From the NCBI RefSeq assembly GCF_041154675.1, contig NZ_AP031322.1, forward strand, positions 1,116,001 to 1,180,000: DNA of 64,000 nucleotides, in the 5' to 3' direction. Every line of letters starts with the position of its first letter. Within the stretch, counting starts at the first letter, position 1. Of the stretch, positions 11,851 to 27,353 are shown piece by piece. Position numbers and translations under genes: made by a program. This stretch comes from Sulfurisphaera javensis (lineage in GTDB: Archaea > Thermoproteota > Thermoprotei_A > Sulfolobales > Sulfolobaceae). Under the pieces are notes generated by a model. That model was not told the origin of the DNA. It ran no database searches and saw only the letters and a program-made list of their open reading frames with translations.

Positions 11851-12213
11851 ATGAACGATAAGGTATTGTTTGTTTTCATGACTGGAAGGGAGAATATGGC
11901 AAAACTATTAGCTAATATTGGAATGGCTGGTAAAATTAAATCTGTTGATCCTAATATAACAGTAGAGATGATTTTCTTAACTCCTGCAGTAGAGGTGTTA
12001 AATAAAAAACAAGTTATTTTTAGGCCTATAATAGATACTATAAAGGATGCTAAAAAGGTAGGGGTAAAAGTAGTAGCTTGTGAAGTTGCAATGAAAAATG
12101 TGGGACTTGATAAGGAGGATATAGAAGATGGATTAGTTGATGAATATGCACCAATAGGAGGAATTTATGTTTTGAATAAGATAAAAGAGGGATATGAAGT
12201 ATTAACAATCTAG
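11851..12213 (+). CDS. DsrE/DsrF-like family protein
   Basis: A protein of about 120 residues with the DsrE fold pattern: the first strand KVLFVFMTG, helix ENMAKLLANIGMAG, FLTPAVEVLNK, and the second half DAKKVGVKVVACEVAMKNVGLDKEDI ending in a short GGIYVLNKIKEG helix. The Cys in VVACEVAM is at the position used by DsrE-like sulfur carriers and YchN-like proteins. In sulfur-metabolising archaea such proteins bind sulfane sulfur, but no sulfur-oxidation neighbours are present. It sits inside the island interval and is preceded by a good TATA box. Confidence 0.8.
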   Translation: MNDKVLFVFMTGRENMAKLLANIGMAGKIKSVDPNITVEMIFLTPAVEVLNKKQVIFRPIIDTIKDAKKVGVKVVACEVAMKNVGLDKEDIEDGLVDEYAPIGGIYVLNKIKEGYEVLTI

Positions 12214-12371
12214 ATTTTTTATTGTTAAATTAAATTTTACTAAAAATCTTATTGAGACTTATAGAAAGTACTTTTTGGACTTTTTAGTTTAAACGAAAAC
12301 TAAAGTTATGTATATCTAAAATTTTCGGTTTTGTGTCTAGATTATTTAAAAATCTTAACTTGTAGATCACT

Positions 12372-12622
12372 ATGATAAGTATTGCTTCAGATAGGTCATT
12401 TGATAGTGAAGTAGATCATATAATAGATACCATTATCGATTTAAAGAGGAAATATAATTTAAATATAGAGCATAAAATATTTGGTAATATTTTAGAATTT
12501 AGGATGAAAAGTAAAAATAGTTATAATGAAGTAAAATTTGTAATAAGAAGAGATGATAAATTAATTGTAGATATTTTTCTGAAAATGATTCTTTATTGGG
12601 TGAAATACTATGGAAAGTGTAA
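12372..12622 (+). pseudogene. Hypothetical protein with a probable frameshift near its end
   Basis: The frame starts at ATG 12372, about 24 bases after the TATA-like ATTTAAAAA (12344-12352), so a leaderless start is likely. The first 68 residues or so look like a real small alpha/beta protein (MISIASDRSFDSEVDHI onward). Near the TTTTT at about 12574 the sensible reading shifts: the original frame runs on into the next gene, while a neighbouring frame gives [16 protein letters not shown] and a stop at 12620-12622. That stop overlaps the next gene's ATG in normal operon style. I therefore read it as a gene with a one-base frameshift. Family not recognised. Confidence 0.45.
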
Positions 12623-13086
12623 CTTCATTTATTTTAGTTATGGCTACTGTTGTATTAGGGCTTGTCGCTGTAGGATTATTTGCTTCTTATGGAAGTATTA
12701 CTTATGCTAATACTGTTAGTTTGAAACAAGCTCAAGAGTATTCTGCTGGTTTAAGAATAACAGTAGGAAAGGTAGATGGTAATGAAGTTCCTGTTCTTAT
12801 TAATGATTATGATTATAATGGGTCAATATATCTTGTAGCATTTTATTCAAAGTATAATAATCCTAATTATTTCACTTCTCAATATGCTGAAATTAATTCT
12901 ACTGCTTCTCTCTCTGGTAATGCCAAAATAAATAGTTTGAACAATGGTATTCTATACGAAGGTCAAATAAGTTATTATAAGACGTATACTGGTGATTTGC
13001 AGTTAGTAAGTGTTAAGCCTGGGTATTATACTATCTTGTGGATAATTATTGGGTATTATGAAGTTGGATATGAGGTGATTCAATGA
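12610..13086 (+). CDS. Secreted or membrane-anchored protein with pilin-like N-terminal helix
   Basis: A 158-residue protein not recognised. Residues about 4-27 form one hydrophobic helix ([20 protein letters not shown]), similar in placement to archaeal type IV pilin or FlaG/FlaF N-termini. The remainder is rich in Tyr, Asn, Ser and Gly, as in extracellular beta-rich proteins of Sulfolobales, and ends with a second hydrophobic stretch ([12 protein letters not shown]). Its stop overlaps the ATG of the next gene (ATGA at 13083). Surface location is inferred. No clear class III signal cleavage site was seen. Confidence 0.6.
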
Positions 13087-14369
13087 GTTCAGTAATAGGA
13101 ATGATATTTGTTTTGATTATAATGTTGTCAGTTATAATACCAGTAATGTATTTGGTAACTTCTACTCCTTCAAAGTATGAGGAGAGTTTAGCTTCTGTTC
13201 AGCCTAAAGTGGATGAGGCTGAAGAGCAGTAAAATGAAGTTAATAGTCCTTCATCACCTATTGGTTTCTATTATGATAATAGTACTGGCAATGCTTATAT
13301 TGTGTATTATAGCGAGCCTGCTGTTCCACTAAATATTTCGTATTTTCTAGGATATTCTGGAAATGATTTAAAAGTAATAAAGATTGGTGATCCTACTAAT
13401 ACTACATATAATGGTTATCCTGCTGTTGAGTATGATATAGGTGATTATACTGAGTTAGCTATGGTTACTTCGCTTGGTAATATAATATATGCCAATCCTA
13501 TTGTTAATTGTAACAGTAATACAGATTCAACGATGATAAGCCCTATGGAAATGTTTGCTATACAAGATGCTTATATGAATCCAAATAATGTAAAAACAGA
13601 TAATCCTTATTCTCTAACTTCTCATTATGTGATTAACTACTGTCAAACACCAGGGTTAACAGGATATGGTGTAGAAATAACTATAATAAGAGAGTATAAT
13701 TCTGGATGGCTTAATTTAACCATTGCTGGGGTTAAACCTTTCTCTGGTTCATCTGTAGAAGATCCTGATACGATTGGATTTTATGCGCCTACAACTTATG
13801 GAAATATGTATGGCCAAATAGAGTGGTGTTCTAACTCTATGTTATTCAATATATCATATGATGGAAATCCAAAGGATTGGGGTCTTACTCCATATTTCTA
13901 TGCTGGAGTCTATACGTCTGTTCAATATAATAATATATTTCCAGCAAACATAGACTTTTATTTTGAAGGGAATCAGATTTACGTATATGTCATTCATGAT
14001 GGGAAAGAATTAGAATTACCTAATATTAAACCTGTGGATTTGCCTCCTAATTCTAATTTTGGGTGTCCCCCACTTCCACCAGGATTCCAAGACAAATATT
14101 TTACTCCATTGTATGAAGTAAATTACTCTGTTTCGATATGGGGTCCTTTACCAGCAGATTCGTATAAGGATACTACACTATCAATGTCTAATAGTTTTCC
14201 ATTTAGTCCTATACAAATGAAGCCATACACTATCCCTGATGGTAATGCTGTCGCTTTCTGTTATTATTATCCAGTAAATAATGATTACGTTCCAATTCCT
14301 ATAGGGGCTCCTATAGAAATTTTCATAGACAATGGAATGATACTAAGTAGTGTTCAATCTTCAATTTAG
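13083..14369 (+). pseudogene. Surface-protein gene interrupted by an in-frame TAA
   Basis: The frame starts at ATG 13083, overlapping the previous stop by four bases. It encodes an N-terminal membrane helix ([20 protein letters not shown], residues 5-24), then a charged linker ending DEAEEQ, and then TAA at 13230-13232. The same frame continues without a further stop to 14369, giving about 378 more residues of Tyr/Asn/Pro-rich, beta-type extracellular sequence. The first ATG-like start after the stop is far downstream. One nonsense mutation in an otherwise intact 428-codon gene explains this best. With the two genes before it, it forms a small operon for a putative cell-surface structure. Confidence 0.6.
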
Positions 14370-14442
14370 TAAACATATAAGGCTATGTTTTGATAAGTTT
14401 TATTTAGAAAGTTTTTTTATCTAGATTAGAGAAATATTTTTT

Positions 14443-14832
14443 ATGAGTATAAAAGATCTTATAACGAAAGAGCCTATTACTATTTCTTCTTCGTCTTCTA
14501 TAAAAGAAGCAGCTAAAATGATGAGGGAGTATAATGTTGGTTCGTTACTTGTTACTAGTAATGGGAATGCGGTAGGAATAGTAACTGAAAGAGATATAAT
14601 TCAAGCTATTTCTGATGATATTTCATTAGAGGAAAAAGTTAGTAAGATAATGACAACTAACCTAGTTATGGCTGAAAGTAATATGGATGAAGGAGATGCT
14701 GCATTATTAATGGCTAATAAGAAAATAAGGCATTTAGTAGTTACTGAAAATGGAAAAATCATAGGTGTAATCTCTTTAAGGGATGTAGCTAAGGCTTTGG
14801 GTTTAGAAACTACAGATGCTAGTATATGGTGA
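14443..14832 (+). CDS. Small protein of two CBS domains
   Basis: A 129-residue stand-alone CBS pair. The first repeat ends [15 protein letters not shown] and the second [16 protein letters not shown], each with the RD motif typical of adenosyl-ligand binding; [20 protein letters not shown] opens the second repeat. Such proteins usually sense AMP, ATP or SAM and regulate partners in trans. No partner is evident. It lies inside the island interval and is convergent with an alcohol dehydrogenase fragment that starts at the next base. Confidence 0.88.
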
Positions 14833-15090
14833 TTACTCAGGAATTATTAAGCTTCTTATAGCTTCTCCTTGATTTAATAATTTTACTGCTTCGTTAATTT
14901 CTTCTAATTTGAATTTGCCAGTTACTAATTTTGTTGGATCGTATTTACCCAATTTTACTAGGTCTAATAATCTTGGCATATCTACTCTTGGTCTTCCTCC
15001 ATAGTTTCCTATTATGGTTATTCCATTTCTCACTATATTAGCTCTAACACTCAAAAAACTTGGGATCCCAGCAGGATTAACTTGATTGAA
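14833..15090 (-). pseudogene. Zinc-type (MDR) alcohol dehydrogenase, C-terminal fragment
   Basis: The frame encodes about 85 residues matching the end of medium-chain dehydrogenases: [49 protein letters not shown] and a C-terminal RSLIIPE. The open frame extends upstream past the TTG at 15054 through NPAGIPSFL but loses protein-like character where palindrome copy P2 begins (15098). The cofactor and catalytic domains are missing, so this is a remnant cut at the repeat. Confidence 0.8.
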
Positions 15091-15097
15091 TTTTTCT

Positions 15098-15119
15098 CAG
15101 TTTACTGGGGAGTTAACTG
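15098..15119. repeat. Palindrome family copy P2
   Basis: CAGTTTACT, GGGG, AGTTAACTG: an inverted repeat with one mismatched pair around a GGGG loop. The flank TTTCTCAG on its left is shared with copies P3 (TTTCTCGG) and P5. It marks the point where the alcohol dehydrogenase fragment is truncated. Confidence 0.7.
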
Positions 15120-15208
15120 ATTGTAAAATAGTAATAATATTACTATTGCGTTATTAAAGATAATAACGCGAGAAACGAAAGATTAAATACCCCTTTTTGC
15201 AAAATCAG

Positions 15209-15297
15209 AAATCGGGGGATGAAGGGGATGAAGAACACAACACGAGATGAAGGGTAAATGACCAGCCTGCGCTGACCCAGACCCTCTCCATCCCCCT
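15209..15297 (+). ncRNA. Possible structured RNA A (weak box C/D features)
   Basis: A GC-rich island in AT-rich DNA. GGGGGATG near 15214 can pair with CATCCCCC near 15289-15297, closing about 65 bases that contain three GATGA motifs and one CTGA (15272-15275). The spacing is not canonical for box C/D sRNA. A TCTAATTAAGCTTA tract follows it, as after element B, so the two may be related. Strand is uncertain. Confidence 0.3.
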
Positions 15298-15390
15298 ATC
15301 ATATTATACTCCTCCCTTTCTAATTAAGCTTATCCTCCTAGAAAAGTAATTACAACTGTGGTAGTCTTTCTATCTGAAGATTATGAAATC

Positions 15391-15454
15391 GGGGCGGGAG
15401 TGGTGTTGAGTTTCCCGGCATCTAACAGTGACGAAGAGGGACAGAACTGACCCC
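15391..15454 (+). ncRNA. Box C/D sRNA-like element B
   Basis: The order and spacing fit an archaeal C/D guide RNA: terminal stem GGGG (15391-15394) with CCCC (15451-15454), C box GTGTTGA (15403-15409), 12 bases, D' box CTAA (15422-15425, one change from CTGA), two bases, C' box GTGACGA (15428-15434), 12 bases, D box CTGA (15447-15450). Both guide intervals are exactly 12 bases. It lies between palindromes P2 and P3, about 420 bases before the Argonaute 1 start. Targets were not identified. Confidence 0.5.
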
Positions 15455-15511
15455 TGTTTTCATTTTCTCATTTTATCTAATTAAGCTTAAACTACTTTAT
15501 CCATCTTTCTC

Positions 15512-15531
15512 GGTTTACTCCCCAGTTAACT
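15512..15531. repeat. Palindrome family copy P3
   Basis: GTTTACT, CCCC, AGTTAAC core with one mismatched pair. The left flank TTTCTCGG matches the left flanks of P2 and P5, although the loop is inverted (CCCC rather than GGGG). With P2 it brackets a 434-base segment that contains RNA-like elements A and B. Positions 15532-15870, to its right, hold no gene; they are AT-rich and must include the promoter of the Argonaute 1 operon. Confidence 0.7.
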
Positions 15532-15871
15532 ACAAATATGTGCAAATTCCTTCAAGATGGAAGAAGTTACCAAAATTTTTTGGAGGAATGATGATGGAAA
15601 AACTCCGTTTTAAACATGTAGGTATTACCTATGATGAAAATTTTTTCTCCGTTACTTACACATTAAAACTAACGTTTGGTAATATTTCATGTCCATTGGT
15701 ATTACTATAAATATACGTATTTTCATTCGAAAATAAGTAGGAGTTGTTTAGGAGATTGTTGGTAGTCTTTATTTTTAAAAAATAAAGGATAATACACAAT
15801 CTTCCATTAGATATAGATTTAAGTCAGGAGAAAAGAAAAAGATTAGGAGGGGCTCGGAGGTGTTGTAAGAG

Positions 15872-15970
15872 ATGTCTACTAATAATTCAAATCAAAACCA
15901 AGCTAATAACTTTAACGTTATATTTAGCGATGTTGATGCGACTTGTAATGTTAAAGGTGGCATAAAATGA
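15872..15970 (+). CDS. 32-residue ORF translationally coupled to Argonaute 1
   Basis: An ATG at 15872 follows a strong ribosome site GGAGGTG (15857-15863) by eight bases. It encodes 32 residues, starting MSTNNSNQNQ and ending NVKGGIK, and its TGA overlaps the Argonaute ATG in the string ATGA at 15967-15970. The good ribosome site and coupling suggest it is translated. The peptide is Asn/Gln-rich at its N-terminus with a single Cys; no family is recognised. It could be a leader that sets Argonaute dosage or a remnant of an ancestral N-terminal gene. Confidence 0.55.
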   Translation: MSTNNSNQNQANNFNVIFSDVDATCNVKGGIK

Positions 15971-17367
15971 TGACAAGCCAAACTGATTATGTTACACAAC
16001 TTAATGAGGCGACTATAAAAGTCATTTTAGGGAGGAACGCCAAGCATCATATTCCAGAATTTATAACAGTGTTAAAACCTTATAAAAAAGCCGATATTAG
16101 CATAAGGGTATTAGCGTTAGGTAATATTTCTGAAGAGTACAAGAACATAGTAGCAAAATTGTTAGATGGCCTTTATAATAGAGGGAAAGATCCTATTAGT
16201 GGCAGTCCTTATCAATGGCCTTATCTTAATTCTAGAGGCTCGAATTTAAGCAAGGTCTTTAATATTAAATATGAGTTCGACCAAAATCTGGAGGTAGTTA
16301 ACCTTGATGAAATAAAGAAGGACATATCAAATTTTTTTGACTACACTGATAAAAGATATACTGTACACCTAGTTGTTGGTGAAGAGAAATCATTTAACCA
16401 ATTTCATGATATACTCAAGGTATACGCTAAGATAGAAGGAGTTAGATTACAATTCATTAAATTATCTACTCTTCGAAAAATTTTTCATAAAATGTATAAG
16501 TATGCTATTCCATTGAATCTTGCTATCCAATTTTTAGCTAAGAGTGGAGATGGTACTCCATGGATCCCAGACCAAGAAGTATATAAAGAGATTTCGAAGG
16601 AATATGGTATATCTAACGGTCTAGTCATTGGAATATCATTCGCTAGGCCGCATGAGAAAATAGTATACGGTGTTGGTTTCTTCTCAACTTTTAATAATTA
16701 TTATCAAAAGTTCGAGTTAGAAGAGTTCGAGTTAGAAGAATCATTGAATACCTCAGAAGGACTGTACGTTCCAAAAGATAAGATGGCAGATCTACTAGAG
16801 AAGGGACTTAGATGGTATAGAGAAGTAGTTCATTCAGATCCACCATTAGTTATTATTTATAAGACTTCACCACTCCATAAGGAAGAAAAGGAGGCAATAA
16901 AAGACGTACTAGGAAATACTAGATGGGTATTCATTCATGCACAATATACTACTAGTGAAAGACTTTTTGATACTTCTAAAGAAGATTTTTATGTCGAAAG
17001 GGGTACGGTGTGGGTACAGCGAAGAAATAAATGGAAACCAGAGTCAGATGATTTTTACCATAGCAAGGTTACAATTGCAGCTACTGGTTACATCAAGCCT
17101 GTTATCCTAGGTAAGGTACCTTATATACCACCATTAGGAACCCCAAAACCGATTAGGTTAAACATATTTACTAACATAGATATTAACCCAGAAGCTGTAG
17201 CTAAAGTAACACTCCTCCAAATTAAGGCTGATTGGGAACATCTAAACATTAAGTCAAGAAAAATAGCAGTTCTTAAGTACTCAAATAGATTTGCAAGACT
17301 CTTACAATGTGCGCTTAAAAATGGTATTGATGGTTTTAGAAAAGCCGATATAAGGGATATATTGTAA
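15967..17367 (+). CDS. Short prokaryotic Argonaute (MID-PIWI), catalytically inactive, SiAgo-like
   Basis: At 466 residues it has the length of a MID-PIWI short Argonaute without N and PAZ domains. The MID domain spans about 130-200 (YTVHLVVGEE onward, with a basic TLRKIFHKMYKYA helix suited to a guide 5' phosphate) and ends GTPWIP, the usual MID/PIWI junction. PIWI begins VIGISFARPH at 220, where the first catalytic Asp of the DEDX tetrad is Ser. The C-terminal KIAVLKYSNRFARLL is the usual PIWI ending. Family knowledge: SiAgo of S. islandicus has this form and signals through Aga1 and Aga2. GGTGG precedes the ATG by six bases. The gene is coupled to a 32-codon ORF and followed by an N-lobe-like gene. 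Confidence 0.82.
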   Translation: MMTSQTDYVTQLNEATIKVILGRNAKHHIPEFITVLKPYKKADISIRVLALGNISEEYKNIVAKLLDGLYNRGKDPISGSPYQWPYLNSRGSNLSKVFNIKYEFDQNLEVVNLDEIKKDISNFFDYTDKRYTVHLVVGEEKSFNQFHDILKVYAKIEGVRLQFIKLSTLRKIFHKMYKYAIPLNLAIQFLAKSGDGTPWIPDQEVYKEISKEYGISNGLVIGISFARPHEKIVYGVGFFSTFNNYYQKFELEEFELEESLNTSEGLYVPKDKMADLLEKGLRWYREVVHSDPPLVIIYKTSPLHKEEKEAIKDVLGNTRWVFIHAQYTTSERLFDTSKEDFYVERGTVWVQRRNKWKPESDDFYHSKVTIAATGYIKPVILGKVPYIPPLGTPKPIRLNIFTNIDINPEAVAKVTLLQIKADWEHLNIKSRKIAVLKYSNRFARLLQCALKNGIDGFRKADIRDIL

Positions 17368-17381
17368 AGGACGTGATATAC

Positions 17382-18077
17382 ATGGTTTTGGAAACTAATG
17401 TTTACATATCAGACAGTGAAATAAACGAGATAAGTCTTTCTTGTGTCGACCTAAAAAACGAAGGAGATGCTTATAAGGTACTTAATGAACTGGCTGAAAA
17501 AGGGATTTTTGCTGTCCCAAGGGAAAACAAATTATACTTCACAACATTAGAAGAGGACGAGAAGACTAGGAAAATACTTGAAGAAGTGCTAAGTAAAATA
17601 GATGTTAAGCCTTCAATACAAAAGGACTGCAAGAAGATAAATCCAGAAGAAAATATAGATTACTTCAGAATAATCATGTCTAATGCAATCAGATACCATA
17701 TATTAAATAAAAGGAAACTAAGCTATCAACTACCAAACACAGGATCTGGAATCTATATATGTACTGAAAAAGTAAGAATTAATAACATAGAGGTTTGTAG
17801 GGGATTAAGATTAACTATTGATGTGTTTGATAATAGGGTTGAAATTAGTGCTGAATACAAAGTTAAAGTTCTTAATGAAAATAAGAAACTTAGTAAAGAA
17901 ATGATAAGAAAAATTAGGGAACTCAGCCTCATTAAGCCAAAGAATAGGTATAATTATATACTCGAAGTTATGAAAGATCTTTTTGAAGATCATGATAGTA
18001 TCACTATACAAATATCACAAGACATGAGAATCAACTTTAGAAGAATGGATTTTCCTTTTTATACAACTTCAAATTGA
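17382..18077 (+). CDS. Argonaute-associated protein 1 (Aga1-like; N-lobe/APAZ-like)
   Basis: About 231 residues. The ATG at 17382 is preferred over an in-frame GTG at 17373 because that GTG belongs to a GTGAT ribosome site four bases before the ATG. The second half, with RYHILNKRKLSYQLP, then GLRLTIDVFDNRVEISAEYKV, resembles the N-terminal/L1 part of Argonautes. I infer that it supplies the missing lobe, forming a guide-binding heterodimer with the short Argonaute, as Aga1 does in S. islandicus. It starts 14 bases after the Argonaute stop. It has no membrane helices and no recognisable catalytic motif. Confidence 0.68.
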   Translation: MVLETNVYISDSEINEISLSCVDLKNEGDAYKVLNELAEKGIFAVPRENKLYFTTLEEDEKTRKILEEVLSKIDVKPSIQKDCKKINPEENIDYFRIIMSNAIRYHILNKRKLSYQLPNTGSGIYICTEKVRINNIEVCRGLRLTIDVFDNRVEISAEYKVKVLNENKKLSKEMIRKIRELSLIKPKNRYNYILEVMKDLFEDHDSITIQISQDMRINFRRMDFPFYTTSN

Positions 18078-18189
18078 CTGAAAAGAACTAAAACGTCTAT
18101 TCCATTTCTATGTTAACAAAATCTATATGACCTCTTCAGTAGAAGTCGTTCAACCTAAGGAGATAAAAACTAACCATAAAATATGTTAT

Positions 18190-19239
18190 TTAATTTGATG
18201 ATTTATTTTCCTTCAATTTGTCAGAGATAAGATCATATAGGAAAAATACAAATGGTGGAACAGTTACTATAATCTCAATGATTTCCTTTGAAGGTAATGA
18301 AATAAATGGTAGTGCTAAAAGTATGCTAATTAAAATTAATAGAATTATTAAATATGTCTTGAGTGTCCTAATAGTTTTCTCAAGTTTTTCACTATTTTCA
18401 ATTAACTTCTTTGCTTTTTCTGAACTTTGACCTACAACATATACCGTTTTATCAAAATCAAGTTTTTTAAGTGCAATAAGGAGAATAAACAGTTTTTCAT
18501 TTGGTGGTACTTCCTCAAATGTAGGGTCATATTCAATTCCGAGGGACTTGAAATACTCTTGTACTTCACTTATGAAACTAATTTTACCTAATTCGTTTAG
18601 TATACTCTCCTCTTGTATTCCAGAGCTAGATCCGAATAGTAAGTATGCAAGTGTTGCCTCTAACAAGTTACTTCTATCAAATACCTCATTTATATTAATA
18701 TCAATGCTGTATTGTTGGTTCTGTAGTTTGTGATACAAATAATAATATAAAAGAACCTTTTTGTTAGAGTTAGCAAACTCATGTATGTCTACATTTAAAT
18801 ATGCCAGTAAGAATCCTAGTTCTTCTGGGTAAGGAGCTCCGGCTATTTTATAATATGACCTCTTTTCCAGAATCTCTTTCAACTTTTTCTTAAGACCTCT
18901 TATATTTTCATTGTCTTCAGTCTTTTCGATTATGTATAGATATATTGCAGTAGCAAGGCCTTCCTCCCAATTATCCTCTATAAAAGCTGGGTACTTGAAA
19001 TAATAATCCACTTTCTTATTTATTTCCTCCAGTAAGCTGTCTCTTTCTGGTGCACCTAAATCAAATTCACCCGAAACATATTTAAATAAATATGCCCAGG
19101 CCCTAGTTAGTTCAGATGTATCTACCCTTAATAAGAGATTATCACCAATTCTTTTTAATTTAATAAAATAAGGGGCATAAACCACCCTGGGTTTAATGTC
19201 AGCGTTAGTCTTATTTTTTCTGAGATTACCTAATAGCAT
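18190..19239 (-). CDS. Two-helix membrane protein, candidate effector (Aga2-like)
   Basis: A 349-residue protein with a soluble, mostly helical N-terminal region of about 285 residues and two C-terminal membrane helices: about 292-311 (YLIILLILISILLALPFISL) and 321-338. The tail is short and charged (KLKENKSSN). It has no signal peptide. It is convergent with the Argonaute 1 operon, 112 bases away. In the S. islandicus SiAgo system the effector Aga2 is a membrane-associated protein that depolarises the membrane; size, topology and position make this the likely counterpart (inference). AGGTAAA precedes the ATG. Having its own promoter allows separate expression of the effector. Confidence 0.6.
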   Translation of the reverse strand: MLLGNLRKNKTNADIKPRVVYAPYFIKLKRIGDNLLLRVDTSELTRAWAYLFKYVSGEFDLGAPERDSLLEEINKKVDYYFKYPAFIEDNWEEGLATAIYLYIIEKTEDNENIRGLKKKLKEILEKRSYYKIAGAPYPEELGFLLAYLNVDIHEFANSNKKVLLYYYLYHKLQNQQYSIDININEVFDRSNLLEATLAYLLFGSSSGIQEESILNELGKISFISEVQEYFKSLGIEYDPTFEEVPPNEKLFILLIALKKLDFDKTVYVVGQSSEKAKKLIENSEKLEKTIRTLKTYLIILLILISILLALPFISLPSKEIIEIIVTVPPFVFFLYDLISDKLKENKSSN

Positions 19240-19475
19240 TAAGCATTTTACCTGTATGTATTTATGAAAAGCTAAATTATATTTATTCTTTAACCCTGCA
19301 TGGTTTATAAAAACATCTTTATCTTGAATAATACCATATTAGAAGTTAGCAAATTCAACAACTACTATTTACTACTACTAAGCTTATGATTGAATAAGCA
19401 ATGTTTCAGCTATTTATGTGTACGTAAGGATCCTTCCTTCCTCCCCTTCCTCTTCCTTCTCTACATAAAAAATCT

Positions 19476-19524
19476 CTAAAAAATGTAAAAAATTCAATTA
19501 GCTTATAATTAGCTAAAAATTAGC
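19476..19524. repeat. AT-rich repeat, copy X
   Basis: This segment matches 22446-22496 closely: CTAAAAAAT, a poly-A tract, TTCAATTAGCT, then TTAGCT and AAAATTAGC in the same order. Each copy is preceded by a pyrimidine-rich run (CTTCCTCTTCC type) and, about 100 bases earlier, by TATTTACTACTACT (near 19365 here). A palindrome copy follows each: P4 after this one, P7 after the other. The AATTAGCT units are internally repetitive. Function unknown. Confidence 0.6.
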
Positions 19525-19610
19525 CTACGTAAAAATTCAAGTTTGCAAATTGTTTTTTCTATCTCTTTTTAGGTGAGTAGTAGTTATACCAGCTATAGGA
19601 TTTTTAGCTT

Positions 19611-19626
19611 TTTACTGGGGAGTAAA
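19611..19626. repeat. Palindrome family copy P4
   Basis: TTTACT, GGGG, AGTAAA: a perfect six-base-arm inverted repeat, 77 bases before P5. The promoter-proximal flank of the membrane effector gene is to the left. Confidence 0.65.
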
Positions 19627-19702
19627 CTGAAAAGTTTACATTGTAGATAAAAAATTAGAAAAAGACTAGATAGGCTGTTTGTTTATTTCAATTTGTTTCT
19701 CT

Positions 19703-19724
19703 CAGTTTACTGGGGAGTAAATTG
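19703..19724. repeat. Palindrome family copy P5
   Basis: CAGTTTACT, GGGG, AGTAAATTG with the shared left flank TTTCTCT. A decayed coding-like segment begins directly to its right. Confidence 0.65.
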
Positions 19725-19739
19725 CCATAATTTGCAAAC

Positions 19740-19905
19740 GTTGATACACAGAAAACTTAGGTTTAATGTTCCGGGCGGAGTAGATCACGATGGTAGTACA
19801 ATATCTGGCTTCTCCCCGCCACAGACTTTCTGCCCTCATTTATGTAATCATGAACATAGAGCGATAACGTATAATGACTTTCCGGAAACAATAACATTGG
19901 TAATC
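19740..19905 (+). pseudogene. Decayed coding remnant with the DFPET signature
   Basis: The plus-strand frame reads KLRFNVPGGVDHDGSTISGF, later CPHLCNHEHRAITYNDFPET. The stretch around NDFPET has counterparts in the spacers at about 41076 and 43456 (YKDFPETVVLLSKHS and MGVPETVALLSKHI). Conservation of the reading frame in three places, each without an intact gene, indicates remnants of one mobile or viral gene. The Cys/His cluster suggests a zinc-binding protein. Family not identified. The GC-rich GGGCGGAG...CCCCGCC section can also fold. Confidence 0.35.
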
Positions 19906-19911
19906 CTCAGC

Positions 19912-21045
19912 TCATTCCCACTTTTGATTTAAGAGAGATCTGAAAGTATTAATGATAGTGGGATTAGAGGAAATTGGATCTTTATGAAATTCCTCAAAGT
20001 CCTTATTTATAATCAACGAATTTAACATCTTAGTCAGAGAAACTATTACTCCGAGCTTATCTTCTGAATTCTCCCTTGCTGCCTCTTCAATACGGGTTAA
20101 AAGATATTTTGCCGATTCCTTATCTGGACCTGTAAATTTGTCAATAAAGGATTTTGTTTCTGATAGAAATCGATCATCATTAACAACATCTTGAAGATTT
20201 CTGGCTTCGTGTGTTACTGGATCAACAATGAAACTTTTACGAAATCCCTCTTCCCATATTTTTGGCATGGGAAGAGGCTTCTTACTCGTAGTTATCCTAA
20301 CTGAGGAACTATAAGATAATATGCCTGGAAAGAAATACCTAAAAATTGATGTGCTTTCCATAACTTTTTGTCTATTAGGGCTTAAGGTAACCGTAAAAGA
20401 TTCTGGTAGGCCGGTAACTATAGGGATAATGTTGTTAAGATTTAGTATTTTGTTGAATTCAACTAAATCTCTCCATATTTTGTTCAAGGTGTTTATTCTC
20501 TTGTTGAAAATAATTCCTAACATCTTGATTCTGGTATTACTTATCACGTTTTTAGCTATCTCCGGATCAAACCCTATTATAGGAACGATATTTTGATAAG
20601 TCTTCGCAAAAGAAGAGATGATATCTTGGATTGATGATCCCTTTAATTTATTTAATGGTAAAAATAATAATGGATTTTCTATGTCCTTTTGAAATTCTAT
20701 CACACCATTTAAGAGACTTCTTATTTTTTCAACTTGAGACAGTTTTCCTTGAATAGACGGAATAACAAGAAATAGCTTATTGTTATCTGACATTAACTTC
20801 TTCAATTCGTATATTTTATCAATCAGTTCAGCCTTTAACTCGGGCTTAAAGGGGATATTAACCAAAAATACGTGGTCAGGGATGTATAAATTTGCTGGAG
20901 TATATTGTTTCGAAATGATCTCTTTTCTCGATAGAGCCTTTATAGGTAGTAGTATTTCCTTACCATTGATTGTTAGTTTATACCCCCTTACATAGAGACC
21001 ATTAAGCTCATATCTATATAAATCTGAGATACTGATGTCTATCAT
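19912..21045 (-). CDS. Unrecognised 377-residue protein of the island's central operon
   Basis: Not recognised. It is soluble, with alternating hydrophobic strands and helices (HVFLVNIPF, KLFLVIPSIQG, PLLFLPLNKL, IVPIIGFDPE, IKMLGIIFN, NIIPIVTGLP), spaced like a TIM barrel, over residues 50-225. A second, helical domain follows from about 270 (FIDKFTGPDKESAKYLLTRIEEAAREN). A KKPLPMPKIWEEGF segment links them. No catalytic motif stands out. It is the last gene of a three-gene operon and overlaps the upstream gene by four bases (ATGA). Its context suggests a defence or toxin-antitoxin role, which is inference only. Confidence 0.6.
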   Translation of the reverse strand: MIDISISDLYRYELNGLYVRGYKLTINGKEILLPIKALSRKEIISKQYTPANLYIPDHVFLVNIPFKPELKAELIDKIYELKKLMSDNNKLFLVIPSIQGKLSQVEKIRSLLNGVIEFQKDIENPLLFLPLNKLKGSSIQDIISSFAKTYQNIVPIIGFDPEIAKNVISNTRIKMLGIIFNKRINTLNKIWRDLVEFNKILNLNNIIPIVTGLPESFTVTLSPNRQKVMESTSIFRYFFPGILSYSSSVRITTSKKPLPMPKIWEEGFRKSFIVDPVTHEARNLQDVVNDDRFLSETKSFIDKFTGPDKESAKYLLTRIEEAARENSEDKLGVIVSLTKMLNSLIINKDFEEFHKDPISSNPTIINTFRSLLNQKWE

Positions 21046-21593
21046 CCCTTACCCCTACCCCACTTAATTTCTTTGAATTTATCTTTGATTTTTGAACGCT
21101 CCTTATATTGCGGATAATTAGCGTAAACGTACCTTAATATTCCTTTTACAGTATACTGATCAATACTTCTCCTGAATAACTTAAAGTCCTCTAAGTCTTT
21201 TCTCCTTATCTTTTCCTCAATAATTGCTTGAGCTTCCCTCTTTCCTTTCTCAGTTAATGAAAATGCTTCTGTCTCTTTACCATACTGCCCCTCTACTTTG
21301 ATGAAGTTTGACCAGACTAAATTATCCAACTCTTGAGTAAGAAGGAAACTATAAGGACCATAGGAGTATGGTATAAAATGAGGGTCTTCGTAAGTATATC
21401 CTTTTTTATCCAATTCCTTGTAGAATAGAAAGAGCCCTTTCTGGTATTTTATTCTAGAATATATAGGCTTATCTGGTGATAAGCCGAACAAAATTAACAC
21501 TACATCAGATATAAAGAGATCTACTTTTTCAAACTCCTTCCCTTCAGCCTCATCCAATGTATAATACCTAGTTTTATCTGGGAGCTCTCTCAT
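21042..21593 (-). CDS. Panacea/YwgA-like winged-helix protein
   Basis: About 183 residues from the ATG at 21593, chosen because GAGGTG lies five bases upstream and the upstream gene's TGA is two bases away; the longer in-frame start at 21626 would overlap that gene. Residues about 20-130 resemble Panacea (DUF4065) and YwgA-like domains: SRIKYQKGLFLFYKELDKKG, HFIPYSYGPYSFLLTQELDNL, and FSLTEKGKREAQ. Panacea domains act as antitoxins paired with varied toxins. If that holds, the toxin would be one of the two neighbours. The family call is from pattern recall. Confidence 0.55.
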   Translation of the reverse strand: MRELPDKTRYYTLDEAEGKEFEKVDLFISDVVLILFGLSPDKPIYSRIKYQKGLFLFYKELDKKGYTYEDPHFIPYSYGPYSFLLTQELDNLVWSNFIKVEGQYGKETEAFSLTEKGKREAQAIIEEKIRRKDLEDFKLFRRSIDQYTVKGILRYVYANYPQYKERSKIKDKFKEIKWGRGKG

Positions 21594-21595
21594 AC

Positions 21596-22114
21596 TCACA
21601 CCTCTATTGGTTCTGGACCAGGACATACGTACTTGTCAAGTTTTTTCTCGTAATAACACGTAATATAATATCTTTTTTTAGTACGTTTATACTCAAAGAT
21701 ATAATCATAACTAAAAATCTGTCTCTTCTTAATAAAATTGATAAACTGGTTTATAATACTTGTTGGATCTTCTGCCTTTAGAGAAGCGTATTTGCTGGCA
21801 AATGCTAATCGTTTAGTAAAAGCTACATAATTATTATTAAGAAAATCTTTGTAACGCGTTATTCCAAATTTTGTATTAAGATAGCGTAATATCGATTCAT
21901 TAAATTCCATATGATTTAATAGATAATTAAGATCTGGTTTCTCTATCCAAAACAATCTGTGGCATACACCACAATAATATGGAATGCCTAGCCTGGTAGG
22001 TCTTGAAAAAGTAATACCCACTCCGGAAGCAGATATATTAGTAAGTGACAGAGGATTCATAGTAGCACCACAGTAAGGGCATTGTATTGATGACAAACTA
22101 TTATACCCCTCCAT
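21596..22114 (-). CDS. Zinc-ribbon protein of the island's central operon
   Basis: A 172-residue protein. The N-terminus carries a zinc ribbon: CPYCGATMNPL at about residue 12 and YYCGVCHRLFW at about 47. The rest is helical and basic, with FIKKRQIFSYDYIFEYKRTKKRYYI. Two more cysteines lie near the C-terminus (ITCYYEKKLDKYVCPG). The family is not recognised. It is the first gene of the three-gene operon; nucleic acid binding is inferred from the ribbon and charge. A CRISPR-repeat-like sequence lies about 20 bases upstream of its start. Confidence 0.6.
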   Translation of the reverse strand: MEGYNSLSSIQCPYCGATMNPLSLTNISASGVGITFSRPTRLGIPYYCGVCHRLFWIEKPDLNYLLNHMEFNESILRYLNTKFGITRYKDFLNNNYVAFTKRLAFASKYASLKAEDPTSIINQFINFIKKRQIFSYDYIFEYKRTKKRYYITCYYEKKLDKYVCPGPEPIEV

Positions 22115-22133
22115 AGTCTAATCACTAATATAT

Positions 22134-22153
22134 CTCCTATGGAATTGAAAGAG
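22134..22153 (+). repeat. CRISPR-repeat-like fragment R1
   Basis: CTCCTATGGAATTGAAAGAG ends like many Sulfolobales CRISPR repeats, whose 3' end is GAATTGAAAG. There is only one copy here with no spacer array. It lies just upstream of the zinc-ribbon gene. It may be chance or an orphan repeat. Confidence 0.3.
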
Positions 22154-22233
22154 ATCCTGGCAAGTGCCAAACTATTTACCCTATGAATATTTCGTTATGG
22201 TTTTAAATAATTCTTCATGATCATCATACAAAC

Positions 22234-22249
22234 TTAACTGGGGAGTTAA
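22234..22249. repeat. Palindrome family copy P6
   Basis: TTAACT, GGGG, AGTTAA: a perfect six-base-arm inverted repeat in the 776-base gap between the zinc-ribbon gene and the second membrane protein gene. Confidence 0.65.
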
Positions 22250-22333
22250 TGAGATTTTAGAAAAATAAGTAGCCAGTGTTGAGCTTTTTTAGCATAGAAA
22301 TGTGTGAAATTCGAGACATATTATTTACTACTA

Positions 22334-22355
22334 CTTTCCTCTAAGGAATTGAAAG
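22334..22355 (+). repeat. CRISPR-repeat-like fragment R2
   Basis: CCTCTAAGGAATTGAAAG is present here, preceded by TACTACTACTTT. The same CCTCTAAGGAATT string recurs at about 26666 upstream of the Argonaute 2 operon, with two extra bases before GAAAG. The end resembles Sulfolobales CRISPR repeats. No array is present. Confidence 0.35.
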
Positions 22356-22362
22356 ACTGTTA

Positions 22363-22379
22363 CAGATGAGCCTCATCTG
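22363..22379. repeat. Perfect short hairpin
   Basis: CAGATGAG, C, CTCATCTG: a perfect eight-base inverted repeat with a one-base centre, immediately after R2. It could be an operator for a dimeric repressor or part of a structured RNA. Confidence 0.5.
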
Positions 22380-22445
22380 TTTTGGATGAATGAGCTCTAT
22401 TTCGTCTCTTTCTTCTTCCTCTTTTTTCTTATCATAAGAAATTTC

Positions 22446-22496
22446 CTAAAAAATACAAAAAAATTCAATTAGCTATATAGTTAGCTTAAAATTAGC
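22446..22496. repeat. AT-rich repeat, copy Y
   Basis: The second copy of the element at 19476-19524, with the same order of CTAAAAAAT, poly-A, TTCAATTAGCT, TTAGCT and AAAATTAGC. It is preceded by a pyrimidine run (CTTTCTTCTTCC) and ends five bases before palindrome P7. Confidence 0.6.
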
Positions 22497-22500
22497 TGAT

Positions 22501-22518
22501 GTTAACTGGGGAGTTAAG
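22501..22518. repeat. Palindrome family copy P7
   Basis: GTTAACT, GGGG, AGTTAAG with a perfect TTAACT/AGTTAA core. It directly follows AT-rich repeat Y and lies about 100 bases before RNA-like element C. Confidence 0.65.
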
Positions 22519-22615
22519 CGAGTAAAAAGGATAGTAATATTATTCCTATTATACTATTAACAATAATTCCGATAAAAGTGAAATATTCAAATATTTGCCC
22601 AAACAGAATTAGGAC

Positions 22616-22679
22616 GGGATAGAGGAATAATGAATTGCCCCGGAAACTGACCGTGATGAGCAGGGTCAGGTCTGATCCC
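22616..22679 (+). ncRNA. Box C/D sRNA-like element C
   Basis: Terminal stem GGGAT (22616-22620) pairs with ATCCC (22675-22679). Inside it: C box ATAATGA (22627-22633, one change), 13 bases, D' box CTGA (22647-22650), two bases, C' box GTGATGA (22653-22659, perfect), 12 bases, D box CTGA (22672-22675, perfect). This is the complete order and spacing of an archaeal C/D guide RNA. It is GC-rich in AT-rich DNA and lies about 210 bases upstream of the second membrane protein gene. Targets not identified. Confidence 0.6.
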
Positions 22680-22890
22680 TACCCCTAATTACATTATATT
22701 TCTTCTTTTCTAAATAAGATTTTCTCACTAGGAAATGTTAGGCTTATTGTTTTTTGATAAAGAGAATATTTTGTCGGCTATTAGGAGAGTAATTAAAACG
22801 ACAAACTAAGGTCTTCTTACTACTCCGTAATTTCTAAACTCAAACAAACTTGAAAAACATATTAACTTTCTTATTTAGTTATAGTTATAC

Positions 22891-23958
22891 ATGATTAGTC
22901 CTCGCTCATCTCAGACTCTTTTAGATGCGTTAGATAGAACTTTAGAAATTTTACATGATCAGACCAAAGTATGTGAACAACTATCTGATAACATAATTTA
23001 TTTGTACATTTATGATCTGATCTGTAACAAACAAGAATCAGAAAATTCTAATAATATTAAACTACCTAGGCCTTATTATGCGTACATAATCATAGCGTAT
23101 CATCTGCTGTTCTATAGAGGGCTAAGCAGAGCACAAAAACTGCTAACAAAATTATCTGAAGTTGAGGATGAAATGGATGATAATGAAAGAAGTGCATTTA
23201 AAATGATTATGGCTGTTTCTCAAGAAGTAGAATATATAACGAAATTTAACGAGTTGACTAAGAAATCTTTAACAAAAAGAGATGAGTACACTGAAGCACA
23301 ATATTCTCTAAATCGAATTAAAATGGAGTTAGATAGAATACCCGTAAATGAATATAGTTGGGCAAGTATATTTAAAGAGATACTCAAGCTTAGAGTAGTA
23401 TCAATAATAGATAGTAGTCTTATAAAGAGTGCGGATAATATAAATAATTCAATAAAGGACCTTGAAGCAGAAATTATATTAGACGAGAGGCTAATTGACG
23501 GATACAACATAATTTCTCTTTCAGGAGATTATATAAAATCTTCAGTCTTGGAATATTTCAAAAAGGAATTAGATATTATAAAGAGTCAAATTATTAATGT
23601 CTTAAAAGAGAAGGAAAAAGTTGATGATAACCTTAACAAAATATATTGGTTGCTATCTAGAATACCAAAACTAATATCTATATTAAGTTTTATGGAATCA
23701 AAACTAGGATCCATACAATATATTCTTTATATTCTTTATGCAGCGATTATAGCATTTGTGGGAGAACGTACATATCAAGGTTTCCTATCATCACATTTAC
23801 AGATTATTGAGATTATTTTACCTATTATTAGTTTGATCGTATTTATATTTCTAGTAATTATATTCTTCTTAGTAATACTCTTTCGCATCTATAAGAGGAA
23901 AGCTATGAAGATAGAATTAACATTCTTTCATAAGCTCGAGGAATTAGGAAATCAATAA
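22891..23958 (+). CDS. Two-helix membrane protein, candidate effector of Argonaute module 2
   Basis: A 355-residue protein with a helical soluble region (residues 1-270, including a coiled-coil-like LKEKEKVDDNLNKIYWLL near 238) and two C-terminal membrane helices, about 276-294 (IQYILYILYAAIIAFVG) and 304-332. A basic tail follows. It has the same size and topology as the module 1 membrane protein, but I see no alignable sequence between them. It is convergent with the Argonaute 2 operon with a six-base gap. TATTAA lies about 28 bases upstream of the ATG, suggesting a leaderless transcript. A membrane-damaging effector role is inferred from context. Confidence 0.58.
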   Translation: MISPRSSQTLLDALDRTLEILHDQTKVCEQLSDNIIYLYIYDLICNKQESENSNNIKLPRPYYAYIIIAYHLLFYRGLSRAQKLLTKLSEVEDEMDDNERSAFKMIMAVSQEVEYITKFNELTKKSLTKRDEYTEAQYSLNRIKMELDRIPVNEYSWASIFKEILKLRVVSIIDSSLIKSADNINNSIKDLEAEIILDERLIDGYNIISLSGDYIKSSVLEYFKKELDIIKSQIINVLKEKEKVDDNLNKIYWLLSRIPKLISILSFMESKLGSIQYILYILYAAIIAFVGERTYQGFLSSHLQIIEIILPIISLIVFIFLVIIFFLVILFRIYKRKAMKIELTFFHKLEELGNQ

Positions 23959-23964
23959 ATCTTT

Positions 23965-25374
23965 TTATATAAACCACATTACTTTTTTAACATTTTCTGG
24001 TAGAGTCTTCTCACTAACCCTAAAAACCCTAGATGTTAAATAAGCTATTTCTCTTGAGTACCTAGTAGTTATTGGTTCCTTTAGCATAGGATTTTGAACT
24101 GATACATAATTAAGTCTAGCCATTGCGAAAACAGTCCTAATTAAAGTAAGATCATCAAGGTTACTTTCATCAAGATTACTTTCATTTTCTAGTTCGATAT
24201 GCCTAGATACTAACAAAAGTGTAGGTAATCCTCTAAATATGTTAGCCTTCGTCTGTTGATTCGAAATCTTAAAAGTTCCAGTAGTGCTTAGAGCATAAAC
24301 ATTATTTTTCAATTTAATAGTTAATCCTATAGGTGGATACCATGAATTTTCTCCAGACTTACCTTGATATTCACTAGAATCATCAATTAACACAAGGTCT
24401 GAATAATTTATTTTCAAAACGAATATGATTACTCTTGAACCTAATGAATTCTTTGCCTCTTGAATAGCTTTTCTTATTTTTTCATCATCATCTCTTCCTA
24501 GTTCCTTTCCTGAATAATGAATAATGACTATATGATCTTGTACACTAGACTTGCTTGCAATATCTTTAATATATCTAGAAATTATTTCACCAAAACTAGT
24601 TGGTACGTTATTCGAATCGAGAACATTACTATCCCCAAATACCCATACACCATAAGAGTCAAAAACTGAAACATAACCAACATAATTCTTATTATTTAAC
24701 GGATCTCTAGATAAACCTAGCCCGATAATATGAAGAGAGATTTTCCCGCTCAATGTTCTCTCCTTAGTTACTGGACTTTGAGCCAGAGAATAAGGCACCC
24801 CGCCCATCTTTACAAACAATTGGATTGCCATAGGCAGAAGCGACCATATATAAATGGAACTGTTCTTTAAAGTATCCGTTGTTACTATTTGGGTAGGGGA
24901 CGAAAGTTCGCCTAGTTCTGGATTGAGGAAATTTGCTTTCACCCTATAATATATACTATCTATTTCACTTCTTGCAGTCTTAGGAAGGACAATTAAAGGA
25001 AAAGTCTTAGACTCATAATTATCCTCATATACTGATAGAATCTTATTAGGATCATAATCGTTTCCAGAATCATAATCAACTACTTGAAAATCTATATTAG
25101 TTCTAAAAATATTGTTAAATCCTTTGTAAACTCGCCAATTATTACCTTCTAGTCCATTTTTTAAATCATTACTTAGCGATTTGCATGAATCTAAATTCTC
25201 CTTTTTACAGATTATTAATATCTTTTTATATCTATTTACACTGATATTTTTATCATAATGTGATGAGATTGAAAAAGGGCCATAGAATGTAATGTAGTAT
25301 GGATGAATATTTACATTGCTTTCACCAAATCTTAATAAGAAATCTGATAATGAAAATCTATGAAAAATTTTCAT
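23965..25374 (-). CDS. Second short Argonaute (MID-PIWI), catalytically inactive
   Basis: A 469-residue protein. The MID domain covers about 50-190, starting KILIICKKEN and ending AIQLFVKMGGVPYSL, the characteristic MID/PIWI junction of prokaryotic Argonautes. PIWI starts SLHIIGLGLSRD at about 213-224, where the first tetrad Asp is Gly/Leu. HIVIIHYSGKELGRDDDEKI is the following strand-helix, and PITTRYSREIAYLTSRV is the typical PIWI end, with Asn in LNYVSV where active enzymes have His or Asp. Cleavage is therefore unlikely. It overlaps its partner gene by one base (TAATG). It is clearly different from Argonaute 1 in sequence. Confidence 0.78.
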   Translation of the reverse strand: MKIFHRFSLSDFLLRFGESNVNIHPYYITFYGPFSISSHYDKNISVNRYKKILIICKKENLDSCKSLSNDLKNGLEGNNWRVYKGFNNIFRTNIDFQVVDYDSGNDYDPNKILSVYEDNYESKTFPLIVLPKTARSEIDSIYYRVKANFLNPELGELSSPTQIVTTDTLKNSSIYIWSLLPMAIQLFVKMGGVPYSLAQSPVTKERTLSGKISLHIIGLGLSRDPLNNKNYVGYVSVFDSYGVWVFGDSNVLDSNNVPTSFGEIISRYIKDIASKSSVQDHIVIIHYSGKELGRDDDEKIRKAIQEAKNSLGSRVIIFVLKINYSDLVLIDDSSEYQGKSGENSWYPPIGLTIKLKNNVYALSTTGTFKISNQQTKANIFRGLPTLLLVSRHIELENESNLDESNLDDLTLIRTVFAMARLNYVSVQNPMLKEPITTRYSREIAYLTSRVFRVSEKTLPENVKKVMWFI

Positions 25375-26423
25375 TATTCGATTACCTCCAATTTAGTTGG
25401 TATATCATATCTAACTCCACCTATTACCATTAAATCCTTAAGTAGATTAGATAACCTTTCTAAATTTTTTTCATCTAACATGATTTTGTAAAATTTTCGA
25501 GGGGTAATTAACATACCCAAGTCTCTTCGGAAGGCATCAAAGTTCTTACATAAATTATTTTGGATAAATAATCTTGATCTCTTAAAATTAGGATTTATTT
25601 TTATCAGATATTTATTTTTCCACATTTTGGGATCAATTGGAATGCTTATCTGATTATTCTCGTCATCTGGAGAACTCAAAACTATTCTATTCTCTTCAAT
25701 ACGTTCAATTGTATACACTTTATTTTTCGAATTGGGATCAGCGAGAAAGTTTACTTTAACTCCCTTTAGAGAGTCAATTTTCCCTTCCTTTCCTAATATA
25801 CTAAGAATATATTCCAAATTTAATTCCATATTAATTCCATATGATAAATTTATAACTAAGTGTAGGAGTTTTTCATCTCTAATTTCGCTCTGCATTATGT
25901 TAAATGTAAAACGCTTAACTACTTGACATAAGTTATCTTTCTTTTCACCACATAGACAAGGGTATTTACCACAAAAACTATCAAAATACCCATCTGAAAT
26001 CTCTAAATCCACTGCTTGCTGATGAGTAAACTCTAAGCATAAATCACTCCCTATTACCTTTTTTTGACATTCATACTGTCTTAATTTTTCATTATTTCTA
26101 AAGTCTTTCTTTAACTTGTTGATCAACAACCTAGAGGCTATAATAGAGTTAGAATCATACTGTTTCTTAACAGCATCTTTTATTTCTGGGAATTGTTGTA
26201 ACTCTTGCTCACTCAGTTCTCCGTTAGCAGAAGTAAAATATATTCCAGCCTTAATATCCTCATTATAGTCATTAGTAAATACAGTAGCAACCAATGAAGA
26301 ACTACTTTTGTTTATCTTAGACCCTATCATAGTGATATCTTGCCTCGGGACTTTAGAAGGATCAACATAATACACTGTTAACACATCTAGATTCGGGATA
26401 AGTCTAACTGCATTAATGTACAC
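25374..26423 (-). CDS. Argonaute 2 partner, cysteine-rich N-PAZ-like protein
   Basis: A 349-residue protein starting at GTG, with GGTGAT five bases upstream. Six cysteines lie within 48 residues (about 119, 129, 151, 156, 158, 166, including CGKYPCLCGE), perhaps a metal site. The part from about 184 to 250 (LLHLVINLSYGIN; SLKGVKVNF; NKVYTIERIEEN) has the look of the Argonaute L1/PAZ region. The end (FRRDLGMLITPRKFYKIML) is helical. I infer that it forms the N-PAZ lobe of a split Argonaute with the following MID-PIWI gene. No exact family is recognised; it is longer than the module 1 partner and not obviously alignable with it. Confidence 0.6.
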   Translation of the reverse strand: MYINAVRLIPNLDVLTVYYVDPSKVPRQDITMIGSKINKSSSSLVATVFTNDYNEDIKAGIYFTSANGELSEQELQQFPEIKDAVKKQYDSNSIIASRLLINKLKKDFRNNEKLRQYECQKKVIGSDLCLEFTHQQAVDLEISDGYFDSFCGKYPCLCGEKKDNLCQVVKRFTFNIMQSEIRDEKLLHLVINLSYGINMELNLEYILSILGKEGKIDSLKGVKVNFLADPNSKNKVYTIERIEENRIVLSSPDDENNQISIPIDPKMWKNKYLIKINPNFKRSRLFIQNNLCKNFDAFRRDLGMLITPRKFYKIMLDEKNLERLSNLLKDLMVIGGVRYDIPTKLEVIE

Positions 26424-26654
26424 TATACATCACCATCTTATCCCATAAAACTCACATATAGTAGTAGATCAGAAATATTAAGTAATTTTTGGATACCACT
26501 GAGTATACAAATTTCTATCCATATCGAATAATTAACAAGTAATATACTTTATTAGATTACAGAGTTACAATGAGAAGAATCCTTTAATAAAGTTTAAGGT
26601 CTACAATATGTAGACTTTTCCTACATGATGAAGAAAGCATAGTAAATGGGATTA

Positions 26655-26687
26655 ACTATTACTCTCCTCTAAGGAATTATGAAAGAG
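26655..26687 (+). repeat. CRISPR-repeat-like fragment R3
   Basis: CTCTCCTCTAAGGAATT followed by ATGAAAGAG resembles R2 (CCTCTAAGGAATTGAAAG) with two inserted bases. It is about 235 bases upstream of the Argonaute 2 operon start. No array is present. Similarity to Sulfolobales CRISPR repeats is limited to the GAATT...GAAAG end. Confidence 0.3.
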
Positions 26688-26709
26688 CAAAGCTTAGATA
26701 GCTAATAGT

Positions 26710-26955
26710 CTACTTATTTAAGCACTGCTTAACCACATCTTTTATCTCATCGGGTTTAGCTTCACATGTACGATATGCTTGGCTTATACTTCCTAGCACC
26801 TCATTATCATACTTTATTATCATAGTATTTGTAGATACAGTATTAAACTCGATACTATACTTTCCATCTTCAAAGGGTCCCCAAAGTGTAACTAAAAGTT
26901 CAATATTATAATCATTGTTAAAGCATTCTATAAAAGCCGTCGAAAACTGTTTTCG
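26710..26955 (-). pseudogene. Open frame of about 81 codons without a start codon
   Basis: The minus-strand frame begins after a TAA at 26956-26958 and runs to TAG at 26710-26712. Its translation is protein-like: FIECFNNDYNIELLVTLWGP, then FEDGKYSIEFNTVS, then YDNEVLGSISQAYRTC and a C-terminal KDVVKQCLNK. No ATG, GTG or TTG is available near its beginning, although a TATA-like TATTTAAA sits at about 26969-26976. It may be a gene that lost its start, or a 3' fragment. Family not recognised. Confidence 0.4.
26941..26955. promoter_or_regulatory. Perfect palindrome, possible operator
   Basis: CGAAAAC, T, GTTTTCG: a 15-base perfect palindrome at the expected transcription start about 26 bases downstream (minus strand) of the TATA-like TATTTAAA at about 26969-26976. 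It would suit a dimeric repressor. The gene it would control is the start-less frame. Confidence 0.4.
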
Positions 26956-26984
26956 TTAAAGCGTGAAGTTTAAATACTTTGCAT

Positions 26985-27174
26985 TCTATATATTTTTTAG
27001 ATTCCCATCACAGATGTGGATGGTAAATTCCCGAATAGTGGTGGGGAGAAGGAAAAAACTTAAGATGTGCGGGTTTCCCTCGCTATAATGCGAGGTGGGG
27101 GGTTTCCCGCGAAAGGGACGGAGAAGAATGATTGGGCAACCATGACTTCGGTGAAATCCAAGGGCCGAGAATAA
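26985..27174 (+). other. GC-rich segment: foldable RNA or decayed coding tail
   Basis: A GC-rich patch just inside the right att site. It contains a nested hairpin: CCTCGC (27078-27083), TATAAT, GCGAGG (27090-27095), enclosed by GCGGG (27069-27073) and CCCGC (27106-27110). The plus-strand frame also reads like a protein tail, DVDGKFPNSGGEKEKT, stop, then VSLAIMRGGGFPAKGTEKND and TSVKSKGRE with a stop at 27172. Both readings are possible; IS200/IS605-type elements carry a structured RNA at the end of tnpB. Minus-strand frames here are also open but lack plausibility. Confidence 0.35.
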
Positions 27175-27353
27175 ATACAATGAAATTCAATGAGACCCAA
27201 ACCCCTTTGTCTCTGTTCATCTGTTAATTTTTCTACTTGTATCATAAAATCACCCGATTCTATTATAGTATAATCTTATGTTATTCTTTTTTCGTCATAT
27301 GTTATGCAATTGGAATAAGACCGGCGGAGTTCAGTGAAAATTATCGTAAAATA

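Follow-up and report, generated by a model that had tools for sequence, protein, structure and literature searches.

Between two short-pAgo modules of the archaeon Sulfurisphaera javensis lie three tightly packed genes encoding a zinc-ribbon protein, a winged-helix protein and a 377-residue protein, and the question that this locus raises is whether the three form a defence or toxin-antitoxin unit of their own, as a sequence-only reading of the DNA had proposed. In this study, the three genes (hereafter the trio, with genes 1 to 3 numbered in the order of transcription) were investigated within the window, that is, the whole stretch of 64,000 nucleotides that was analysed, and in other genomes. 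We observed that the trio looks like an undescribed toxin-antitoxin-like defence module, in which gene 2 is probably a neutraliser or sensor and gene 3 probably an effector.

The operon and its genomic island

The three coupled genes between Argonaute modules that had been described from the letters were found as open reading frames (Table 1), with short-pAgo modules on both sides. Their transcription runs along the minus strand, from the zinc ribbon through the winged helix to the 377-aa protein, and the ORF coordinates confirm the gap of 2 nt between genes 1 and 2 and the overlap of 4 nt between genes 2 and 3 that had been reported. The start of gene 2 was taken at ATG 21593 (183 aa); an alternative upstream ATG at 21626 gives a protein of 194 aa and an overlap with gene 1. 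The description of gene 1 as a zinc-ribbon protein also holds, with the CxxC...CxxC pattern present at C12, C15, C48 and C51. Profiles built from other genomes only (leave-window-out) and run against all 398 frames of the window recovered gene 2 at E=7e-42, gene 1 at E=5e-5 and gene 3 at E=0.64. The matches of genes 1 and 2, together with an order and coupling repeated in eight loci elsewhere, indicate that the trio consists of genes and not of chance ORFs. No real Pfam match was noticed for any of the trio proteins, and in the PADLOC scan gene 2 alone matched, namely PDC-M19A (6e-15), a type I specificity subunit (2e-5) and DarG (1e-4), while genes 1 and 3 matched no model.

Table 1. Positions of the trio, its upstream features and the surrounding island in the window
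Feature	Position	Strand	Evidence or comment
Gene 1, zinc-ribbon protein, 172 aa, first gene of the operon	21596..22114	-	ORF; leave-window-out profile E=5e-5; family alignment
Gene 2, YwgA/DarG-C-terminal-type winged-helix protein, 183 aa	21042..21593	-	PADLOC PDC-M19A 6e-15, DarG 1e-4; profile E=7e-42; tree; 7yk3 E=0.028
Gene 3, 377 aa, divergent member of a TGT-related, probably TIM-barrel family	19912..21045	-	ORF; rank 1/95 against family profile; beta/alpha alternation in low-confidence models
Solitary CRISPR-repeat-like sequence	22127..22151	+	13-37 nt ahead of the start codon of gene 1; its final 15 nt match host repeat GCTAATCCACTATGGAATTGAAAG exactly; closely similar to the host repeats
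Second, weaker repeat-like sequence, sharing GGAATTGAAAG	22331..22355	+	GGAATTGAAAG occurs at these two places and nowhere else in 64 kb
Intergenic region upstream of the trio	22115..22890	.	Two ACTGGGGAGT palindromes (22237, 22505)
Variable island with both pAgo modules and the trio	9575..27236	.	Congeners share the synteny of the flanks but not the content of the island

The island that harbors the trio and both pAgo modules measures 17.6 kb and occupies a hypervariable slot between conserved genes, beside tRNA-His (27354-27429); synteny with congeners holds for the window genes as far as 9574 and resumes at tRNA-His. The left short-pAgo module comprises pAgo (15967-17367), Aga1 (17373-18077) and Aga2 (18190-19239), with clear PADLOC matches for Aga1 and Aga2. 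The right module (22891-26423) is made up of a membrane-helix protein, pAgo (23965-25374) and a 349-aa partner; a PADLOC model matches pAgo only and neither partner, and no PDB sequence match was detected for the pAgo or the 349-aa partner. It may be a variant short-pAgo system. With reference to the SiAgo-Aga1-Aga2 system of Sulfolobus islandicus, such a module neighbours the trio in the same island; unlike it, the trio genes are separate, with the modules on either side, and no PADLOC Ago-system model was matched within the trio. Additionally, a degenerate second Aga2-like copy was noticed with a ACTGGGGAGT site (L051, G000:C1:1976000-1982000), near a YwgA-type winged-helix gene (4093-4539).

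Distribution of the trio in other genomes

The defence proposal had been made to depend on the trio recurring elsewhere, and the same trio is indeed present in other genomes. Eight sporadic loci of Nitrosopumilaceae keep both the order and the coupling, with junctions from overlaps of about 25 nt up to a gap of 3 nt, and a ninth locus (L070) lacks the zinc ribbon. With a profile of the third genes, the gene 3 family was disclosed in 9 of the 240 Nitrosopumilaceae genomes sampled, and its named records come from Nitrosopumilaceae PL23a_bin.18 and JOPF002 and from Nitrosarchaeum CoA_2_bin.4. The third gene encodes 384-412 aa in the loci first read around the best gene 2 relatives. One zinc ribbon (L036) has no standard start codon, and a profile built without this locus recovers it at E=9e-12. 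The gene 3 family was reached only via gene 2 homologues, by reading around the best gene 2 matches; as sole query, window gene 3 gave no match in Pfam, PADLOC, PHROGs, NCBIfam or PDB, and searches of 41 relatives, of 398 genomes from the phylum and of GTDB contigs, viral contigs, phages and plasmids were likewise negative.

Across the loci, Mantel tests show the pairwise distances of each of the three genes to be correlated with those of the others (r 0.86-0.89, p=0.0002), and the three genes travel as one unit. Their neighbours in other genomes include TIR (PDC-S35, CAP12-type), SIR2, Vsr, Schlafen AlbA_2 and a HerA/VirB4-like gene. The proposed defence or toxin-antitoxin-like role is supported by context, namely the variable island, the defence neighbours and the PIN-type partners of a sister clade of gene 2.

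Gene 2 resembles a DarG/YwgA-type winged helix and has relatives with changing partners

In a tree of 29 winged-helix proteins, those associated with a zinc ribbon formed one group (96/88), with the window protein inside it. The sister group (98/95) consists of winged-helix genes that adjoin a PIN-type gene and a gene 3 homologue, usually in divergent orientation (L018, L020 and L025, with L022 as a variant). In three of them the PIN-type gene matched DUF3368, once above the Pfam cut-off and twice just below it, and other winged-helix relatives adjoin partner genes of other kinds. Such swaps of partner around a small conserved domain are what a neutralising domain would be expected to show. 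By eye, the C-terminal tails of three of this PIN-paired set of four resemble the UPF0175 antitoxin domain.

The sequence-only reading had called gene 2 a Panacea/YwgA-like winged helix. The best PDB match of the gene 2 profile is a DarG chain (7yk3, E=0.028), and the match to the PADLOC DarG model covers its C-terminal half. The Panacea label was ruled out at the family level: the PF13274 (DUF4065) HMM gave no Pfam match up to E=1, and the aligned members read GPYS, GPHS or GAYS where GPV is the Panacea signature motif (PMC8832971). DarG/YwgA-type winged helix is the better label. The likeness to PanAT lies in a small domain with changing partner genes in toxin-antitoxin-like operons, while the absent PF13274 match and GPY/GPH instead of GPV set the two apart.

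In comparison with DarTG, the trio is likewise an operon of a probable neutraliser and a putative base-acting protein. The differences are that gene 2 has no macrodomain and no adjacent DarT (183 aa without a Pfam match, with genes 1 and 3 matching no PADLOC model), that the partner belongs to a TGT-related, probably TIM-barrel family, and that a zinc-ribbon gene is added. The closest PADLOC candidate is PDC-M19, through its PDC-M19A model; unlike in gene 2, no PADLOC model is matched in genes 1 and 3, and the literature searched offered no account of PDC-M19.

Gene 3 probably belongs to a family with a predicted distant relation to TGT

Window gene 3 is very divergent from its family. HMM searches against the family gave E values of 0.64 and 0.03, both non-significant, and with a broader family profile it ranked first among 95 proteins of similar size, locally as well as globally, the global alignment extending over about 350 columns. 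This first rank supports homology to the family, short of significance. The protein also shares with the family an N-terminal pattern of an Arg, a G-x-x-x-x-P step and an E...K step.

It could be supposed that the third gene of the window has no relation to the Nitrosopumilaceae family and represents another effector swapped into a conserved pair of zinc ribbon and winged helix, as the want of a significant HMM match would allow. Swaps seem to occur, since in a Sulfolobaceae variant (L041, 6433-8569) the gene after the zinc ribbon encodes a winged helix joined to a P-loop domain that has a hydrophobic segment. Against this, window gene 3 holds its first place among the 95 by both kinds of alignment and has the same length, position and N-terminal pattern as the family, and we regard the swap as rather unlikely.

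Strands and helices alternate both in the AlphaFold model of window gene 3 from a single sequence (pLDDT 39) and in that of a relative from a three-sequence alignment (pLDDT 52). The best-ranked PDB matches of the three-sequence model are mostly TIM barrels, none of them at E<=0.001, with no TGT among the 50 listed, and a viral Foldseek search was uninformative. A bridge protein of another lineage (L057) aligned by hhalign with probabilities of 95-97% to the combined gene 3 family and of 82-92% to archaeal TGTs; it also gave a weak match (E=0.095) to the TGT Pfam model (PF01702). The direct hhalign probability between gene 3 and TGT was 1-24%, and because this direct profile match is weak, TGT membership is not claimed. 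Among 97 proteins, the three best local matches of TGT are gene 3 members, and local matches 2 and 3 of the gene 3 profile are TGTs.

The PF01702 HMM found no match in the gene 3 members scanned, and TDSG and CxCxxC are absent from every gene 3 member. In the archaeal TGTs compared, TDSG occurs in 16/16 and FDSA(S/A)Y in 15/16. The Asp residues of TDSG and FDSASY are catalytic in TGT; at the Asp position of FDSASY the gene 3 family displays N, S, C, D or I, the Asp being replaced in the majority by N, S, C or I. Judging from its motifs, the family probably does not catalyse the reaction of TGT unchanged. We predict it to be a TIM barrel distantly related to TGT, related by inference and not a TGT by test. 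The sequence-only reading had held that a structural match of the 377-residue protein to a housekeeping enzyme would refute its proposal: a housekeeping relative of the family was found in TGT, but the family is devoid of the TGT signature motifs, and a separate canonical TGT is encoded elsewhere in the same genome.

An explanation by base modification resembling that of the Dpd system has also to be weighed, in which gene 3 would be an active transglycosylase that places 7-deazaguanine into DNA or RNA as a mark of self, and genes 1 and 2 would confer specificity. TGT homologues insert such bases in Dpd and have been proposed to do so in BREX-related capture systems, the published TGT-fold defence proteins being the DNA-modifying DpdA and the TGTs of those capture systems (PMC6884629, PMC12839542). 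The weak match of gene 2 to the type I specificity-subunit model would also accord with it. In sequence and predicted fold, the gene 3 family shows a distant relation to TGT. However, no gene 3 member carries the TGT motifs TDSG and CxCxxC, the FDSASY Asp is replaced in most, the trio has no DpdB/DpdC-like partner, and the described gene sets of DpdA and of the BREX-related capture systems differ from the trio, all of which leaves active base modification with a low probability in our estimation.

The upstream region

Upstream of gene 1, two CRISPR-repeat-like sequences were detected (Table 1). Cbp1 is the CRISPR-repeat-binding factor of the Sulfolobales. In Saccharolobus, solitary repeat-like sites are known non-canonical Cbp1 targets (PMC10883916). 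A CreTA-like reading of the pair was tried and set aside: no convincing partial match to either spacer-like stretch was seen in the window, and for this reason the Cbp1-site reading is preferred. In the two CRISPR arrays read, the longest match of any spacer to the window does not exceed 17 nt.

The same region harbors copies of the palindrome-like ACTGGGGAGT, which occurs in the window at 11150(-), 15104, 15517(-), 19614, 19709, 22237 and 22505, that is, 7 times against 0.03 expected, and 18 times in the genome against 1 for the reversed control. The copies cluster round both pAgo modules and the trio. Further copies were noticed in L046 (1702/2033) and L048 (1538). All four genomes of the genus contain a divergent pair about 330 bp apart, which here adjoins an Orc1/Cdc6-like gene; a second gene of this type has a further copy upstream (both genes named by eye). 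The element is possibly an initiator-type box.

Both the adjacency and these palindromes, common to the two pAgo modules and the trio, would suit an explanation in which the trio assists or regulates the pAgo modules next to it and is not an independent system. The Nitrosopumilaceae trios adjoin other defence genes, however, with no pAgo recognised in the stretches read, and such dependence on pAgo appears quite improbable.

A putative toxin-antitoxin-like defence module

A housekeeping or metabolic operon with no role in conflict, which the housekeeping nature of TGT relatives might suggest, is very improbable in view of the sporadic presence, the variable island, the separate canonical TGT and the lack of any gene 3 match in congeners and the other Sulfolobales sampled. 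The explanation that we hold to be the best, with a confidence somewhat under even, is that the operon is a mobile toxin-antitoxin-like defence module, in which gene 2 restrains gene 3, the zinc ribbon senses or adapts, and a Cbp1 site tunes expression. In such a module, gene 3 would be an effector with a TGT fold that acts on nucleic acid by binding or altering bases, and gene 2 would bind and restrain it, as the C-terminal domain of DarG does with DarT. The zinc ribbon would be a nucleic-acid sensor or a DNA-binding adaptor, which on infection may free the effector or control the operon, and the CRISPR-repeat-like site upstream of gene 1 would be a putative Cbp1 binding site that tunes the expression of this gene. 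The roles of genes 1 and 3 are here inferred from the organisation only.

A bolder version of the toxin-antitoxin-like module, which we think unlikely as it stands, would make it a new class of archaeal immune unit, with a catalytically altered TGT fold as toxic or sensory effector, a DarG-type partner that restrains it, a zinc-ribbon sensor that triggers it, and a promoter tied to the CRISPR machinery through the solitary repeat. Should the toxin-antitoxin-like module be real, a TGT-related fold would join the effectors of archaeal conflict systems, and the DarG-type neutralising domain would be seen to serve with one kind of partner after another, as Panacea does in bacteria. Since genetics-ready relatives of the host genus are available, toxicity, neutralisation and protection are directly testable.
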